Origin: Chloroflexota bacterium
GTDB lineage: Bacteria; Chloroflexota; UBA5177; JANWHV01
DNA length: 5,668 nucleotides
Reading direction: 5' to 3'
NCBI GenBank assembly: GCA_025450255.1
Contig: JANWHV010000062.1
Coordinates: 1 to 5,668 of the forward strand
This document shows, in pieces, positions 163-5,668 of the stretch (positions within the stretch are counted from its first letter, which is position 1; each line of letters opens with the position of its first letter). Position numbers and translations under genes: made by a program. Under the pieces are notes generated by a model. It saw only the letters and a list, made by a program, of their open reading frames with translations, did not search any database and was not told where the DNA came from.

Positions 163-1302
163 TTACGCCTCCGAGCGCTGAATGGTCGCGTCGTCACGGG
201 TCATGACCTCGGGACGAAGACGAATGCCCAGGCCAGGCCCTTCGGGCAGATACATGTAGCCCTGGCGAAGGATCGGCGTACCCTCGACCAGGTCGGCGTA
301 AAACGGATCGTAGAGAACACGTGTTGTTTCCATGATGTAGCCGTTTGGCACGTTGAGTAGGACATGCGCCGCCGCGTAGAGGTTCACGGGACCGGAGTTG
401 CCGTGCGGAGCAAGGGGGATACCGTAGGTTTCGGCCATCGTCGCCATCTTCTTCAACTCGGTTATCCCACCGGTCCAGCTAATGTCACCGATCATTACAT
501 CCGTGCCGTGCAACTCGAGCAGGCGGCGCATTTGGTGGCGGGTAAATAATCGTTCGCTGCCCGCGATGGGAAAGGGCGATTTGGCGCGCAAGTCTGCCCA
601 CACCTCGGGGTTGTCTTGCCAGAGCAAATCCTCAAGCCAATGGATGGGGAGGCCCTCCAGAGCACGCGCGATCTTGACGGCGCTGGTCAGGTTCCAGAGT
701 CCATGCGCCTCGATCATGATTTCCATGCGGTCGCCGAATTCGTGGGCCACGGTTTCAATTCCGGCCATCCCTTCACGGAGCTGCGCGGCAGAGATCGATT
801 GGCCATGGCTCTCACGCGCATAGCTATCGAACGGCGTCACCTTCATACAGGTGATGCCGGATTCCAACAACTCGTTCGCCAGGCGCACCGGATCGGTGAT
901 GGCAAGGTCGAAATCGGAGCGCCCGCCAAAGGTGCCGCAGGTATTGTAGATTCGGATGCGCTCGCGGCTTGGGCCGCCCAGCAAAGCGTAAATCGGTTGG
1001 CCCGCGACCTGGCCGAGGATATCCCACAGCGCGATATCAATCGCCGAGATGGCGCGCAACTCGGCGCCGGAGTAGCCATGATAGGCGGCGAAATTGAACA
1101 TGGTGTTCCACAAGGACTCGATGTGGAGCGGATCGGCGCCAAGCAGGTAGCGACGCGCCAGGTCGTGGACGATAGGAGCGGTACGCGCGTCGGGTGTCTG
1201 ACCCAGACCGACTAGCCCGCTATCGGTGTAGACGAGGACGAAGATGAACGGAGGATGGTCGAATCGGCCAAGGTGAATGGTCTCGATCTTTGTGACCTTC
1301 AT
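163..1302 (-). CDS. Mandelate racemase/muconate lactonizing enzyme family protein, probable acid-sugar dehydratase
   Basis: This is a full-length member of the enolase superfamily (379 aa). These cytoplasmic Mg2+ enzymes abstract a proton alpha to a carboxylate; most relatives of this shape dehydrate sugar acids such as galactonate or mannonate. The capping domain spans about residues 1-115 (MKVTKIETIHL at the start) and the barrel about 120-345. Visible active-site candidates are K154 in CMKVTPFD, metal ligands E198 (in IEAHG), E224 (in WLEDL) and E250 (in GSERL), H200 two residues after the first ligand, the D273/H300 dyad (GDISWTGG and APHGNSG) and E325. The ExH pattern plus the Asp-His dyad fits the galactonate/mannonate dehydratase-like branch better than the mandelate racemase KxK branch. 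The first ligand is Glu rather than the more usual Asp. The ATG at 1302 lies 2 nt past the aldolase stop. An in-frame GTG at 1308 overlaps that stop by 4 nt and sits 5 nt (against 11) from the GGAAGGGG ribosome site, so it is a real alternative start. The exact substrate is unknown. Confidence 0.9.
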   Translation of the reverse strand: MKVTKIETIHLGRFDHPPFIFVLVYTDSGLVGLGQTPDARTAPIVHDLARRYLLGADPLHIESLWNTMFNFAAYHGYSGAELRAISAIDIALWDILGQVAGQPIYALLGGPSRERIRIYNTCGTFGGRSDFDLAITDPVRLANELLESGITCMKVTPFDSYARESHGQSISAAQLREGMAGIETVAHEFGDRMEIMIEAHGLWNLTSAVKIARALEGLPIHWLEDLLWQDNPEVWADLRAKSPFPIAGSERLFTRHQMRRLLELHGTDVMIGDISWTGGITELKKMATMAETYGIPLAPHGNSGPVNLYAAAHVLLNVPNGYIMETTRVLYDPFYADLVEGTPILRQGYMYLPEGPGLGIRLRPEVMTRDDATIQRSEA

Positions 1303-1304
1303 GC

Positions 1305-2042
1305 TCACTCGTGCCCCTTCCGGGCCCTCTGCCACCCCGCATACTCACCCAACGTGCCGGCATCGGGTGGATAGACGCCGATGATACTGCTGCCGCCCCT
1401 GATCTTGGCGAGGATGAACTCCTCACGCTGCTCCTGTGCGAAGGCGTCGTGGGCGACATCTTCGGCGATGGCACGGGGGATGACAATGACGGCCTCGCTA
1501 TCGCCCACGATGACATCGCCGGGCAGCACGGCGACACCGCCGCAGGCGATTGCTCCATTGATCTCGACCGGATGATGGATGGTGAACGAGATATTGGGGT
1601 GCTGCCCGCGTGCATAGGTGGGTAGGTCAATGGCACGGATGGCGGGGGTATCGCGAAACGCGCCGTCGGTCACGATGCCGGCCGCGCCGCGCTGCCTGAT
1701 CCGCTCGGTGAGAATGTTCCCCAGCGAACCGGCACGTATATCGCCGCGGGCGTCGATGACAAGCACGTCGCCTGGGCCAACCTGCTCCACGGCGATACGT
1801 TGCTTGTTGACCAGGTTGTCGAAGTCGGCGCCAGGCTCGAGATCCTCACGCGATGGGATATACCGTAAGGTGACGGCCTGGCCAGCCATGCGGGTCTCTG
1901 GACGCAGTGGGGTAACACCATACATCACGAGTTGCTTATAACCACGCCGGTGGAGCTGGCTGCTGAGCGTGGCGGTGCTGACACGACCAAGCATCTCAAG
2001 CACGCCAGGCGCGATGCGGTCGACGGTATCCATCTCAGCCAT
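1305..2042 (-). CDS. RraA-family protein, probable class II pyruvate aldolase (HMG/CHA aldolase-like)
   Basis: The 245-residue protein has the RraA/menG-like fold known from 4-hydroxy-4-methyl-2-oxoglutarate aldolase and from the RNase E inhibitor RraA. Supporting motifs, in order: STATLSSQL helix (22-30), GPGDVLVID (89-97), AGSLGNILTERI (104-115), which in aldolase members forms the pyruvate-carboxylate loop, DGAFRD (126-131) with R130 (substrate) and D131 (divalent metal), and LPGDVIVGDSEAVIVIP (173-189). R130-D131 being intact argues for aldolase or decarboxylase chemistry rather than only the RraA regulatory role. The family cleaves 4-hydroxy-2-oxo acids to pyruvate plus an oxo compound. 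The ATG at 2042 is preceded by GGGAG 4 nt upstream; a second in-frame ATG at 2033 has poorer spacing. It is the first gene of the operon, directly followed by a dehydratase, so I infer that it splits the dehydratase product. The shared promoter at 2158-2194 lies upstream, about 108 nt before the start codon. Confidence 0.9.
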   Translation of the reverse strand: MAEMDTVDRIAPGVLEMLGRVSTATLSSQLHRRGYKQLVMYGVTPLRPETRMAGQAVTLRYIPSREDLEPGADFDNLVNKQRIAVEQVGPGDVLVIDARGDIRAGSLGNILTERIRQRGAAGIVTDGAFRDTPAIRAIDLPTYARGQHPNISFTIHHPVEINGAIACGGVAVLPGDVIVGDSEAVIVIPRAIAEDVAHDAFAQEQREEFILAKIRGGSSIIGVYPPDAGTLGEYAGWQRARKGHE

Positions 2043-2157: not shown

Positions 2158-2194
2158 AATATATACATACCTGTTACATTGCGCAAATGTTACA
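2158..2194 (-). promoter_or_regulatory. Promoter of the aldolase/dehydratase operon with TGTAACA direct-repeat operator (copy A)
   Basis: Read on the minus strand there is a -35 TTGCGC (2186-2181), a 17-bp spacer and a -10 TATATT (2163-2158), a good sigma-70-type promoter directed at the aldolase gene; the start point would be near 2151. Two perfect TGTAACA heptamers (2194-2188 and 2178-2172) flank the -35 box with a 16-bp period. The downstream heptamer fills the part of the spacer next to the -35 box. The same arrangement recurs at 3526-3562 (30 of 37 positions identical) and 5613-5649 (25 of 37). A protein bound here would touch the face used by sigma region 4, which suggests repression or a closely coupled activator. 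The cognate regulator is unknown. Confidence 0.8.
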
Positions 2195-2430: not shown

Positions 2431-2634
2431 CTAGGTGGCCGCGCGTAAGCGCCGCCAGAGGCTGGCGGTCAGGAATAGTATCACCACCACGGGCAGCAGC
2501 CACCATGCGCCGATCTGCGCGTGCGATAGCGCGCCCACCGCTATCAGCGCCACGGCCACCGCCGCGGCAATTGTCCAATCGTCTCCGACGACGAAGTCGA
2601 ACCAGAACCGGCCAAATGCAATCACATAGGACAC
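2431..2634 (-). CDS. Small two-helix membrane protein, partner of the upstream ExxE membrane protein
   Basis: This is a 67-residue protein of unknown function. An N-terminal amphipathic stretch carries FGRFWFDFVVGDDW (residues 7-20), rich in aromatic and acidic residues. Two hydrophobic segments follow (about 20-37 and 42-59) and then a positively charged tail RRLRAAT, suggesting that the C-terminus stays in the cytoplasm. The start is GTG at 2634, with a GGGAG ribosome site 6 nt upstream that overlaps the TAG stop of the preceding gene (stop at 2645-2647). That placement points to translational coupling. The 10-nt gap and shared strand put it in one operon with the polytopic protein, so a role as accessory subunit or assembly factor is a reasonable inference, not shown by the sequence. 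I believe that short proteins with an RFWxDFxxGDDW-like start occur in other GC-rich bacteria, but I cannot name a family. Confidence 0.75.
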   Translation of the reverse strand: MSYVIAFGRFWFDFVVGDDWTIAAAVAVALIAVGALSHAQIGAWWLLPVVVILFLTASLWRRLRAAT

Positions 2635-2644
2635 GATATTCTCC

Positions 2645-3391
2645 CTACGCCGCCACGCGCAATGGTAGCAAGCGTTGCCGCCGCAGTGCGTTTACCAGTA
2701 GGTAGGCGGAGACGCCATATATCGCCAATATGCCGAGGATTGCCAGGTCTGATCCTGGCCACTGCGCCCCCGCGCCTTCCGCCGCCCAGAACGTGCCGAA
2801 CGAGGAGAGAAGCAGCCCTACCGCGAACTTGAGCGTATTCTCGGGTACGCGGCTGAGCGGCGCATGCACGGCGACGCCGGCTACGAGCACCAAAACGAGC
2901 GCCGCCGCCGCGCCGACCGCCGCGAGCGGTACCTGATGCGCCGCGGCGCCAAAAGTCACGACGATGAAGGCTACCTCAAGCCCCTCCAACAAGACACCCT
3001 TGAAGCAAAGGGTAAAGGCATACCAATCCAGTCCCGCCCGCACTTCTTTTTCATGGGTCCGGCCCGCTTCAAGGCCCTTCTGATACAGTGCGGCCTCATT
3101 GCGCAGCGCCTGGACGCCGCCGGCCCGCAAAATGGCCTTGCGCAGCCACTGTAATCCGAAGACGAGCAAGATTGCGCCCACGACCAAGCGCAAGGCGTCG
3201 ATCGGTACGCGCGTCAGTGCCGGCCCCAGTATTGCCACAATCGCCGTCAGGGCAACCAACGCCACCCCGACCCCGATGAGCGATGATCGCCATCCTCGGG
3301 TGACGCCACATGCCAGCACGATGGTTAACGCCTCCACCATCTCAACGGCAGATGCCAGAAAACTGGCCAGTACCAGGAATACGCCGCTCAT
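2645..3391 (-). CDS. COG4280-like polytopic membrane protein with two ExxE motifs in tandem repeats, possible cation transporter
   Basis: The 248-residue protein has about six to seven membrane segments (roughly 4-29, 36-58, 66-83, 122-148, 154-177, 184-205, 215-235) and a charged loop at 85-121. It is an internal duplication. Residues 16-85 carry VEMVEALTIV, later TRVPIDALRLVVGAILLVFG; residues 135-206 carry LEGLEVAFIV, later SRVPENTLKFAVGLLLSSFG. Each half therefore has one membrane-embedded ExxE (E17/E20 and E136/E139). Paired acidic motifs in two repeated halves are the design of GDT1/UPF0016 cation exchangers, and the second motif resembles the REGLE of FTR1 iron permeases, so metal-ion transport is plausible; substrate and direction are unknown. 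The ATG at 3391 has a near-ideal ribosome site (GGAGGTGA, GGAGG ending 7 nt before the ATG). It is the first gene of a two-gene operon behind promoter copy B. Confidence 0.85.
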   Translation of the reverse strand: MSGVFLVLASFLASAVEMVEALTIVLACGVTRGWRSSLIGVGVALVALTAIVAILGPALTRVPIDALRLVVGAILLVFGLQWLRKAILRAGGVQALRNEAALYQKGLEAGRTHEKEVRAGLDWYAFTLCFKGVLLEGLEVAFIVVTFGAAAHQVPLAAVGAAAALVLVLVAGVAVHAPLSRVPENTLKFAVGLLLSSFGTFWAAEGAGAQWPGSDLAILGILAIYGVSAYLLVNALRRQRLLPLRVAA

Positions 3392-3525: not shown

Positions 3526-3562
3526 AGTATAGACACACTTGTTACATTTTGCAAGTGTTACA
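3526..3562 (-). promoter_or_regulatory. Promoter of the membrane-protein operon with TGTAACA direct-repeat operator (copy B)
   Basis: On the minus strand there is a -35 TTGCAA (3554-3549), a 17-bp spacer and a -10 TATACT (3531-3526), the strongest sigma-70-like promoter in the window, pointing at the gene starting at 3391. Perfect TGTAACA heptamers at 3562-3556 and 3546-3540 lie 16 bp apart around the -35. A 7-bp inverted repeat (ACACTTG at 3535-3541, CAAGTGT at 3552-3558) overlaps the same site, so a symmetric operator is an alternative reading. That inverted repeat is degraded in copy A, whereas the downstream heptamer is exact in all three copies, which is why I favour the direct repeat. 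Expected start near 3519. It begins only 33 bp past the stop of the dehydrogenase gene with no obvious terminator between, so read-through from upstream is possible. Confidence 0.8.
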
Positions 3563-3594: not shown

Positions 3595-4626
3595 CTAGCG
3601 CGCGGCATCGACTCTGTCGTGAGGCGGTTCGCCGCGCGCCACGCGGAGGATGTTCCTGGCGCACTGCTCGGTGATGTAGCGCATGGCCTCGTGCGTCCTG
3701 CCGGCGATATGCGGCGTCGCGATGCAATTCGGAAGCCGGATGAGCGCGGGCGATGCCGGAGGCTCTGCATCGAAAACATCCAGCGCGGCCCCCGCGATCG
3801 TACCGTGCGTCAACGCGTGATACAGATCCGATTCATGCACCACCGCTCCACGGGATACGTTTATGAAGACAGCGGTCCGTTTCATGCGTTGAAACAGATT
3901 GGCGTCGAACAGCCCAGATGTCTCCGCCGTGAGTGGCGCCGCCAGGCACACCACGTCCGCTTGCTCGACCAGGTCGCGCAATGGCCTGCACGATACGCCC
4001 AGCGCCTGGTCCTCCGCCGCTTCCAGCGGATGGGGTTTGCAATACAACACCGGCATCTCGAAGGCCCGCGCGCGCGCCGCGACTGCCCGTCCGATGTGAC
4101 CAAAGCCTATGATGCCGAGTGTCTTCCCGCTAAGCTCGAAAACGCCCTGCCGCAGCAGTTCAGCCTGATCCCATCGGCCCTGACGCATGGAGGCGATTGC
4201 CTGGTACAGCCGCTTGTAGAGGGTGAGGAGCAAGCCAAAGAAATGCTCTGCCACGGCGGTCGCGTTGCCTCCTGGCACGTTGGCTACCGGTATGCCCGCC
4301 TGTCTTGCCGCCGACAGGTCGACGCCGTCGATCCCCGCGCCCCATTTTTGCAAGAGCCGTAGATTCGACGCCTGGTCAAGCAGCTCCCGCCCAATCTCGA
4401 CCCCGCTGAAAATAAGGTAATCGGCTCCATGGACGGCCGCACCCACGATTTCCTGCCCGTCATCAGGCGCGAGCACGGTAATCGTCGCCATGGGAAGATA
4501 CTCGGACAGCAAGGGGCGCGCCACCTGGGCGAGATGTTGGGGCATCCACAGCAGCAAACGCGGCGTCGTGCCGCTCCCACTCGTATCATCAGGGCTCTGG
4601 GCGGACGAAATACGTGCCAACGGCAC
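3595..4626 (-). CDS. D-isomer-specific 2-hydroxyacid dehydrogenase family protein
   Basis: This NAD(P)-dependent oxidoreductase interconverts 2-hydroxy and 2-oxo acids, in the fold of phosphoglycerate, glyoxylate and hydroxypyruvate reductases. With the GTG at 4626 as residue 1 (343 aa), it shows the KWGAGIDGVD substrate loop (94-103), dinucleotide motif GFGHIG (174-179), catalytic R259 (NVSRGAVV), E288 (DVFDAEPP) and H306 (TPHIAG), so the active site is complete. The residue that normally ends the second Rossmann strand as Asp in NAD enzymes is replaced by CKPHP (about 196-200), which hints at NADP use. The frame stays open upstream to 4911, but that part overlaps the ChrB-like gene and has an Arg/Ser-rich, non-protein-like composition. 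The GTG at 4626 lies 4 nt past the upstream stop; TTG at 4557 or ATG at 4545 would also work, the ATG probably cutting into the first strand (RLLLWMP). It is cotranscribed with the ChrB-like gene by spacing; its substrate is unknown. Confidence 0.85.
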   Translation of the reverse strand: MPLARISSAQSPDDTSGSGTTPRLLLWMPQHLAQVARPLLSEYLPMATITVLAPDDGQEIVGAAVHGADYLIFSGVEIGRELLDQASNLRLLQKWGAGIDGVDLSAARQAGIPVANVPGGNATAVAEHFFGLLLTLYKRLYQAIASMRQGRWDQAELLRQGVFELSGKTLGIIGFGHIGRAVAARARAFEMPVLYCKPHPLEAAEDQALGVSCRPLRDLVEQADVVCLAAPLTAETSGLFDANLFQRMKRTAVFINVSRGAVVHESDLYHALTHGTIAGAALDVFDAEPPASPALIRLPNCIATPHIAGRTHEAMRYITEQCARNILRVARGEPPHDRVDAAR

Positions 4627-4630
4627 GCGC

Positions 4631-5275
4631 CTACCGTGCGCCGCGACGCGCCTTCGCCCGAGCGATCGGCACCACTGAGGTGCGGTTGCTCTCGGCGAGT
4701 ACGCTCGGTCCATCGTTTTGATGGCCGGCTTCATCACCGCGCTGCGCGGCGAAGACTCGCTCCTCGAACTCCTCCAGCAGTTTCTCACAGCGTGCGATCC
4801 AGTCCCGCGCCTCGTCGCGACGCGACGCCCCGAACCAGTCGCGTTCCACCACGCGCTCGTACCAGCCGCGTATCTTATCCAGATCCTGGCGGATCTCCTC
4901 GGCTTCCCCATAACTGAAGTTCTTGCGGAAAATCTCGAACTCGATCTCCTTGGTGAAGTTCACTTCGCAGTTCTCGATGATCTCACCATATTGCATGTTG
5001 CTCTGCTTGAGGAAGCCGTTTATTACCTTGGCCTCCTCCTCGGCCGGTAGGGATCGCATGGGCAACAGGTGATAGTCACCGCCAAATGACTCGATGCGCG
5101 CCGTAATGCGCTGCAAATGAGCGAGGATTGGGCGAGAGCTTGGGATAATGCAGACGCTCTGCTGCAAATACAGGACGCCGATGCGCTTCAACTCGCGCCA
5201 AATACCGACGCGAGCAGCGGTCGGCTTGCTGGGCACCTGATAAATCAACAGATAATAGAGGCGGTGACGCTCCAT
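4631..5275 (-). CDS. ChrB N-terminal-domain protein (free-standing, possible transcriptional regulator)
   Basis: Residues 7-178 match what I know of the ChrB N-terminal domain: YYLLIYQVPSKPTAARVGIW, then RELKRIGVLYLQQSVCIIPS, then a long helical part (PAEEEAKVINGFL at 77-89, FRKNFSYGEAEEIRQDL at 116-132, ARCEKLLEEFEERVF at 161-175). ChrB proteins are linked to chromate resistance, and in one studied system ChrB acts as a chromate-responsive regulator. The opening strand-helix-strand with QxSV resembles the ferredoxin-like fold of PaaX and Cas2 proteins. At 214 aa it has only the N-terminal part; the C-terminal catalytic-looking half of full ChrB is missing, and residues 179-214 are a low-complexity basic tail ending ARAKARRGAR. 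No chrA is in the window. The ATG at 5275 has only a weak site (AGGGGG, 11 nt upstream). Promoter copy C lies about 340 bp upstream, pointing away. A regulatory role is inference. Confidence 0.8.
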   Translation of the reverse strand: MERHRLYYLLIYQVPSKPTAARVGIWRELKRIGVLYLQQSVCIIPSSRPILAHLQRITARIESFGGDYHLLPMRSLPAEEEAKVINGFLKQSNMQYGEIIENCEVNFTKEIEFEIFRKNFSYGEAEEIRQDLDKIRGWYERVVERDWFGASRRDEARDWIARCEKLLEEFEERVFAAQRGDEAGHQNDGPSVLAESNRTSVVPIARAKARRGAR

Positions 5276-5612: not shown

Positions 5613-5649
5613 TGTTACGATTGACAAATGTAACAGGTGTATCTAAGAT
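5613..5649 (+). promoter_or_regulatory. Rightward promoter with TGTAACA-type direct-repeat operator (copy C)
   Basis: On the plus strand there is a consensus -35 TTGACA (5621-5626), a 17-bp spacer and a -10 TAAGAT (5644-5649). The downstream heptamer is perfect (TGTAACA, 5629-5635). The upstream one is degenerate (TGTTACG, 5613-5619), again 16 bp away. Spacing of every element equals copies A and B, so the same regulator probably binds here. It should drive a gene just beyond the right edge, divergent from the ChrB-like gene. The degenerate upstream box next to a perfect -35 suggests weaker control or a stronger basal level. Confidence 0.7.
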
Positions 5650-5668
5650 AGTTTGAAGCGGATACGCG

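Follow-up and report, generated by a model that had tools for sequence, protein, structure and literature searches.

Genes of the locus and the repeated promoter

The stretch of DNA analysed here, called the window, is a contig of an uncultured Chloroflexota bacterium and is 5,668 nucleotides long. It contains six genes and three copies (A, B and C) of a repeated promoter. The genes are the following:

163..1335, reverse strand: MR_MLE enzyme, second gene behind copy A (possible alternative start at 1302)
1305..2042, reverse strand: RraA-like protein, first gene behind copy A
2431..2634, reverse strand: small membrane-like ORF of 67 aa, downstream of the permease
2645..3391, reverse strand: OFeT_1/FTR1-like permease, 248 aa, putative target of copy B
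3595..4491, reverse strand: D-2-hydroxyacid dehydrogenase, between the chrB_N gene and copy B (start at 4491 picked by eye)
4631..5275, reverse strand: ChrB_N-domain protein, 214 aa, single domain, likely repressor of copies A, B and C

The best NCBIfam match of the MR_MLE enzyme is galactonate dehydratase, under the cut-off of that model. The permease matches PF16955 with 42.2 bits (cut-off 26.9) and two ExxE motifs (E17-E20 and E136-E139) can be read from its sequence; it shares the family match and the motifs with the FTR1/OFeT iron permeases (PF16955), and iron transport here is putative. The gene behind copy B had been described as a putative transporter, and its membership of the OFeT_1 family agrees with a putative ion transporter. 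Permease relatives match two families, PF16955 and PF01169, with scores near the cut-offs, and those on plasmids are annotated as 'TMEM165/GDT1 family'. The nearest named relatives of the window permease are from 'Chloroflexota bacterium' (87-88% identity). The 67-aa ORF has no Pfam or NCBIfam match; small genes like it were also found by eye downstream of permease relatives (L121, L123 and L127). The dehydrogenase and chrB_N genes are possibly co-transcribed, and the end of the latter lies 1.1 kb from copy B. No chromate transporter gene (chrA) was found among the six window proteins, the search ending at position 5668.

The repeated promoter has the following copies and, in copy B, the following hexamers:

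2158..2194, reverse strand: copy A, with the layout of copy B, before the RraA-like/MR_MLE operon; weak -35
3526..3562, reverse strand: copy B, sigma-70-like promoter with two abutting 16-bp units, before the OFeT_1-like permease
3526..3531, reverse strand: -10-like hexamer of copy B, TATACT, 17 nt from the -35
3549-3554, reverse strand: -35-like hexamer of copy B, TTGCAA, overlapped by unit 1
5613..5649, forward strand: copy C, with the layout of copy B (TTGACA-17-TAAGAT), directed out of the window; its target would lie past the window end

The initial annotation had recognised copies A and B as one promoter, and an ungapped comparison bears this out, with 30 of 37 positions identical. Copy C, absent from that annotation, matches B at 27/37 positions on the opposite strand (also ungapped), which makes it the next-best partner of B after A; after these two, the best ungapped partner of B in the window reaches 21/37. 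Both annotated heptamers are present in A and B without mismatch, and in C with one mismatch. The distances to the -35 and -10 hold as well: like hexamers lie 17 nt apart and at equal offsets in all three copies (B, TTGCAA/TATACT; C, TTGACA/TAAGAT, the best -35 of the three; A, TTGCGC/TATATT, with a -35 matching at only 3/6). The best conserved part common to A, B and C is the block AATGTAACA-n-GT, which lies mainly in the -35/-10 spacer.

A 33-nt consensus, derived from the same three copies that it was then scanned for, has exactly three matches in the window at up to 3 mismatches, against none in 200 dinucleotide shuffles. At the same limit it has one match in 399 Chloroflexota genomes, which is part of an array in G126 described below; the 33-nt pattern is found in 0/1 genomes in the order of G055, in 0/7 in its class and nowhere in viral contigs. 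An 18-nt pattern was too loose on genome contigs, where it returned 118 chance-looking stretches. As bare promoters the copies are not above chance, since a promoter scan of the window gives 3 sites against 1.8 +/- 1.4 in shuffles; the three are B, C and one unrelated site, and A falls under the scan threshold. The copies are a real and shared element, probably a regulated promoter. Concerning other modes of control, no RNA family matches the window at E <= 1, which argues against a known riboswitch in the leaders behind A and B (these would be roughly 110-130 nt long).

It had been left open whether the bound protein sees a direct or an inverted repeat. The overlapping inverted repeat ACACTTG/CAAGTGT is real in B (7/7 pairs) but is not a common feature: just 4/7 pairs form in A and 4/7 in C, which makes it an improbable candidate for the common operator. 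The heptamers alone cannot separate the two possibilities, because TGTWACA is its own reverse complement. The shared element is best read as a pair of adjoining candidate operator units of the ChrB_N family, each of 16 bp (TGTWAC-N4-GTWACA), with unit 1 over the -35 and unit 2 in the -35/-10 spacer:

2179-2194 and 2163-2178, reverse strand: units of copy A, 4 and 5 mismatches, right halves degenerate
3547..3562, reverse strand: unit 1 of copy B, TGTAAC-ACTT-GCAAAA, 2 mismatches, overlapping the -35-like hexamer
3531..3546, reverse strand: unit 2 of copy B, TGTAAC-AAGT-GTGTCT, 3 mismatches, filling the -35/-10 spacer
5613-5628 and 5629-5644, forward strand: units of copy C, 3 and 2 mismatches

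Each window unit has one clear half (TGTWAC) and a degenerate second half, with 2-5 mismatches per unit; cooperative binding to two units spaced at 16 bp may compensate for the degenerate halves. The second units begin 2 nt after the -35 in B and C, and 2 or 3 nt after it (tied) in A. A reading as direct repeats only was dropped because stand-alone chrB promoters show single palindromes. A scoring matrix built from 11 plasmid chrB promoters only was used to rank 5653 window positions. Unit 1 of B comes first, units 1 and 2 of C second and third and unit 2 of B eighth, ranks that are to be read with the caveat that the window is GC-rich, so that a motif rich in AT tends to match intergenic DNA; copy A is outside the top 14 matches. 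Such scores are not unusual (the top one is reached in 45% of dinucleotide shuffles and the third-best in 6.6%), and it is therefore the position and not the score of the matches that carries this evidence.

Distribution of the 16-bp unit

The chrB genes of other phyla come from plasmids. ChrB matches occur in 136 plasmid records, of which 60 were listed; 21 of those were picked by hand for variety and 20 were scanned. The record left out, because of the partner of its chrB gene, is an E. coli plasmid (L306), in which, by annotation only, a stand-alone chrB_N gene lies directly before a colistin-resistance gene. The 16-mer is found at up to 1 mismatch close before 15 of the 20 chrB_N genes, which belong to alphaproteobacteria, betaproteobacteria and Actinomycetota; for one of the scanned genes (L320) the start used in scoring was picked by eye, and which codon is the true start is uncertain. 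The stretches fetched for the 15 show no annotated chrA, although the gene of L309 is itself unannotated and the record of L320 is without any annotation. Across the scan, 16/20 chrB genes have no chrA neighbour (2 of those 16 lack annotation), and the four that adjoin chrA, of the chromate type, match the 16-mer poorly (2, 2, 3 and 4 mismatches). In 10 of the 15 the 16-mer lies inside the spacer of the best-scoring promoter, compared with 1.6 +/- 1.2 (maximum 5) in flank shuffles, and this placement parallels that of unit 2 of A, B and C. These 15 genes have diverse neighbours (OFeT_1-like, 'cation transporter', MFS and others), which indicates that the 16-mer goes with chrB and not with one target.

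In two of the plasmid loci (Cereibacter L301 and Roseibium L304), the gene after chrB_N encodes a protein related to the window permease, with 48% identity. Their stand-alone ChrB_N proteins resemble the window system in having a single domain and TGTWAC-N4-GTWACA in the spacer. There are also differences: plasmid promoters have one near-perfect unit whereas the window has two degenerate tandem units, and the gene right behind the operator is chrB on plasmids but not in the window. A stand-alone chrB gene of Bradyrhizobium (L313) has the 16-mer with 2 mismatches; the sequence TGCAACAGGTGTT(G/T)CA occurs twice, about 90 and 55 nt before it, and an MFS transporter follows. By their sequence, these repeats are a variant of the candidate operator.

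In Chloroflexota, the permease is present in 136/400 genomes; the class of G211 (29 genomes) holds no closer relative and viral contigs hold no permease locus. We examined 100 permease loci, taken for the most part in order of match quality. Sixteen of them have a chrB_N gene within the fetched stretch, and in 7 of these 16 it is divergent from the permease. At up to 3 mismatches, the 16-mer is found in the permease promoter of 11/16 chrB_N-linked loci versus 11/79 unlinked ones (Fisher p = 2e-5; five of the 100 loci, with short or N-filled upstream DNA, were left out), and 5/16 linked loci have no site even at 3 mismatches. The association of the 16-mer with chrB_N genes and with the permease is an observation, as are the repeated sites of the window, their layout and the genes. 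The tandem form TGTTACA-N9-TGTTACA occurs in the linked promoters of L203, L229, L242 and L254, and a single 16-bp palindrome in those of L171, L248 and L255. The sole perfect 16-mer among the permease promoters (L238) and one with 1 mismatch (L181) belong to loci unlinked to chrB_N on their stretches. A shared, probably regulated promoter before a putative ion transporter, as first annotated in the window, is supported: related sites precede the permease in part of the other Chloroflexota.

The exact tandem TGTWACA-N9-TGTWACA is found at 13 places in 11 of the 47 genomes of the class of G274, compared with 1 genome for the reversed control. ChrB_N matches are present in 28/47 genomes of this class, 16 of them at >=93 bits, and all 11 tandem-site genomes fall among these 16 (one-sided p = 2.5e-7, with the 93-bit limit set after the list was seen and the value inflated by shared ancestry). 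In a 352-genome sample of the phylum, which overlaps the class, G202 is the sole new genome with the exact tandem; it is at chance level because the reversed control matched 4 genomes in that sample. With so few finds outside, the exact tandem form is so far known from the class of G274 and from this window. Also in this class, 13 of the 17 chrB_N loci showing no permease have the 16-mer at up to 2 mismatches (0.37 expected from shuffles), while the permease-linked chrB genes have an own promoter without the site in 12/13 cases and with it in 1/13. Distant Chloroflexota chrB_N paralogs (L292-L296) have a variant, AGTAACATATGTTAC(C/T), about 50 nt before the gene.

Eight of the 13 tandem places lie 64-430 nt before a permease match. 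The other five are located next to a solute-binding protein and ROK gene (3 genomes), in an array of G126 (1) and next to a pectate lyase (1). The first three (L263, L264 and L265, around 1484-1523) are orthologous arrays with an extracellular solute-binding protein gene on one side and a ROK-family gene on the other, and three heptamers were counted in each of L263 and L265. The array of G126 (L267 1484-1539; G126:C5, around 165757-165795) has four TGTTACA heptamers at a 16-17 nt pitch and is flanked on one side by a permease-like gene that weakly matches a cobalt-ABC permease and on the other by a glucodextranase-like gene. In L268 (G267:C409) a heptamer pair of mixed orientation is located upstream of the pectate lyase, with a glucuronate isomerase nearby; a link to sugar-acid use is possible, or the pair may be there by chance.

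Concerning copy A, no such site was found before the RraA relatives of 29 further Chloroflexota loci, whatever the position of RraA in its operon (29 of 30 loci count; in L340 the gene start is off the stretch). The best 16-mer there has 3 mismatches and the best tandem 4; four loci have p values of 0.03-0.06 singly and the rest are higher. The initial annotation had proposed co-regulation of the transporter with the sugar-acid operon. The part of this that stands is the shared promoter, with copy A before RraA/MR_MLE; beyond this lineage the proposal is not supported, with the site seen in 0/29 RraA loci, and the sugar-acid coupling therefore looks lineage-specific. Within this organism, the sequence of copy A still implies co-regulation with the sugar-acid operon.

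The ChrB_N protein

The ChrB_N protein of the window matches PF20229 with 113.3 bits (cut-off 23), as do 50/50 of its relatives. The ChrB of the TnOtChr transposon of Ochrobactrum tritici is a chromate-inducible negative regulator of chrBACF, and in its full-length form it is reported to be mainly dimeric and to bind its own promoter (PMC3817168). The window protein resembles it as a ChrB-family protein and putative regulator of a transporter operon. The arginine pair near the N-terminus has an equal spacing of five (R18/R23 in O. tritici, described there as DNA-binding, and R22/R27 here), and the operator overlaps the core promoter, as is read for the window copies (PMC3817168). R22 and R27 are invariant in 50 aligned ChrB_N sequences and may be the counterpart of the O. 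tritici pair. The differences are the C-terminal domain with the chromate-response residues R180, R187 and H229, which is absent from the window protein, the target (an OFeT_1-like permease here versus ChrA) and the published inverted repeat of O. tritici, which fits the 16-mer with 3 mismatches only (PMC3817168).

No helix-turn-helix was recognised in the predicted model of the ChrB_N protein, which starts with a Cas2-like strand at residue 7. Among the relatives, 1/50 matches PF04297, a putative helix-turn-helix family (E 7.8e-4). A sequence search with the ChrB_N profile found no solved structure at E <= 1. There is some likeness to the PaaX family: its central Cas2-like domain (PF20803) matches the window protein with 19.4 bits, below the cut-off of 24 (E 0.0012), and 46/50 relatives at E <= 0.01, a weak profile match. 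A Foldseek comparison of the window model with E. coli PaaX (8a39) gives a probability of 1.00 and an E of 0.0099, while none of the fold matches of the model to Cas2 and PaaX has E <= 0.001. PaaX has an N-terminal winged-helix domain, whereas Pfam finds none in the window protein, the N-terminus of which is directly the Cas2-like fold.

Proposed regulation and its alternatives

Based on the evidence above, we consider it likely that the copies are the operator of a ChrB_N repressor. For copy B itself, there is good reason to favour a promoter of the OFeT_1/FTR1-like metal-permease operon that is repressed by a ChrB_N protein, most likely the one encoded on the same contig. If copy B is a working promoter, ChrB_N dimers would bind its two abutting 16-bp units, unit 2 in the spacer and unit 1 over the -35, and would so hide the -35 and spacer of the permease promoter from RNA polymerase. 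A ligand would then free ChrB_N from the site, a metal ion or an oxyanion being the obvious guess. Through copies A and C, the same control would extend to the RraA/MR_MLE operon and to a gene past the window end.

The sugar-acid genes behind copy A invite another explanation, in which a different repressor or activator reads the sites, for example a GntR, IclR, LacI or ROK sugar-acid regulator encoded outside the window, and chrB_N is a bystander. The tandem sites of related genomes beside a ROK gene and solute-binding protein, and the one near a uronate isomerase and pectate lyase, are consistent with it. The site was not seen before the RraA relatives of 29 loci, however, and the 16-mer is tied to chrB_N genes with varied partners in three phyla, so that we regard such a regulator as unlikely. 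Repression by ChrB_N also has to be set against an OmpR-type response regulator that binds direct TGTWACA repeats and for which the 16-bp pitch would be the functional unit. This pitch is exact in A, B and the 11/47 genomes, but it corresponds to one and a half turns, unlike the pitch of 10-11 bp that is usual for repeats of OmpR-type regulators, and stand-alone plasmid chrB promoters have a single palindrome; we give this explanation very little weight.

Slightly weaker still is a purely constitutive promoter with unbound heptamers, its repetition being due to chance or shared ancestry. The -35 and -10 are indeed a common core and neither the promoter-scan nor the matrix scores are above chance. 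The best conserved block, AATGTAACA-n-GT, is nevertheless mainly in the spacer, which sigma-70 is not known to recognise base by base, and related sites are found in other phyla. We regard it as highly improbable that the copies are no operator at all but a dispersed repeat or the termini of a small mobile element: three copies do lie within 3.5 kb, one of them inverted, but the repeats stop at the promoter core (33-35 nt) and tandem sites elsewhere are mostly at the promoter of one gene (8/13 places).

ChrB is known as a chromate switch, and the family as such is not new. In searches of the open-licence literature, we found no published ChrB operator consensus, permease regulon or link between ChrB and PaaX, and no operator or ligand assigned to chrB genes without chrA.

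Returning to repression by ChrB_N, a wider reading is possible, which we put forward tentatively and hold as somewhat less probable than not. ChrB_N could be a family of repressors without a helix-turn-helix that, in three or more phyla, reads one code by means of a Cas2-like fold, namely TGTWAC-N4-GTWACA sited in the spacer of the promoter. Its single-domain members would control metal permeases and other transporters, and in Chloroflexota the code would have become a tandem array that draws in additional operons, the sugar-acid genes of the window among them. With no recognised helix-turn-helix, the DNA contact of ChrB_N is a worthwhile structural question. If the proposal is true, the substrate of the permease family could be revealed via its regulator, and the shared 16-bp code would make ChrB-family regulons predictable from sequence.
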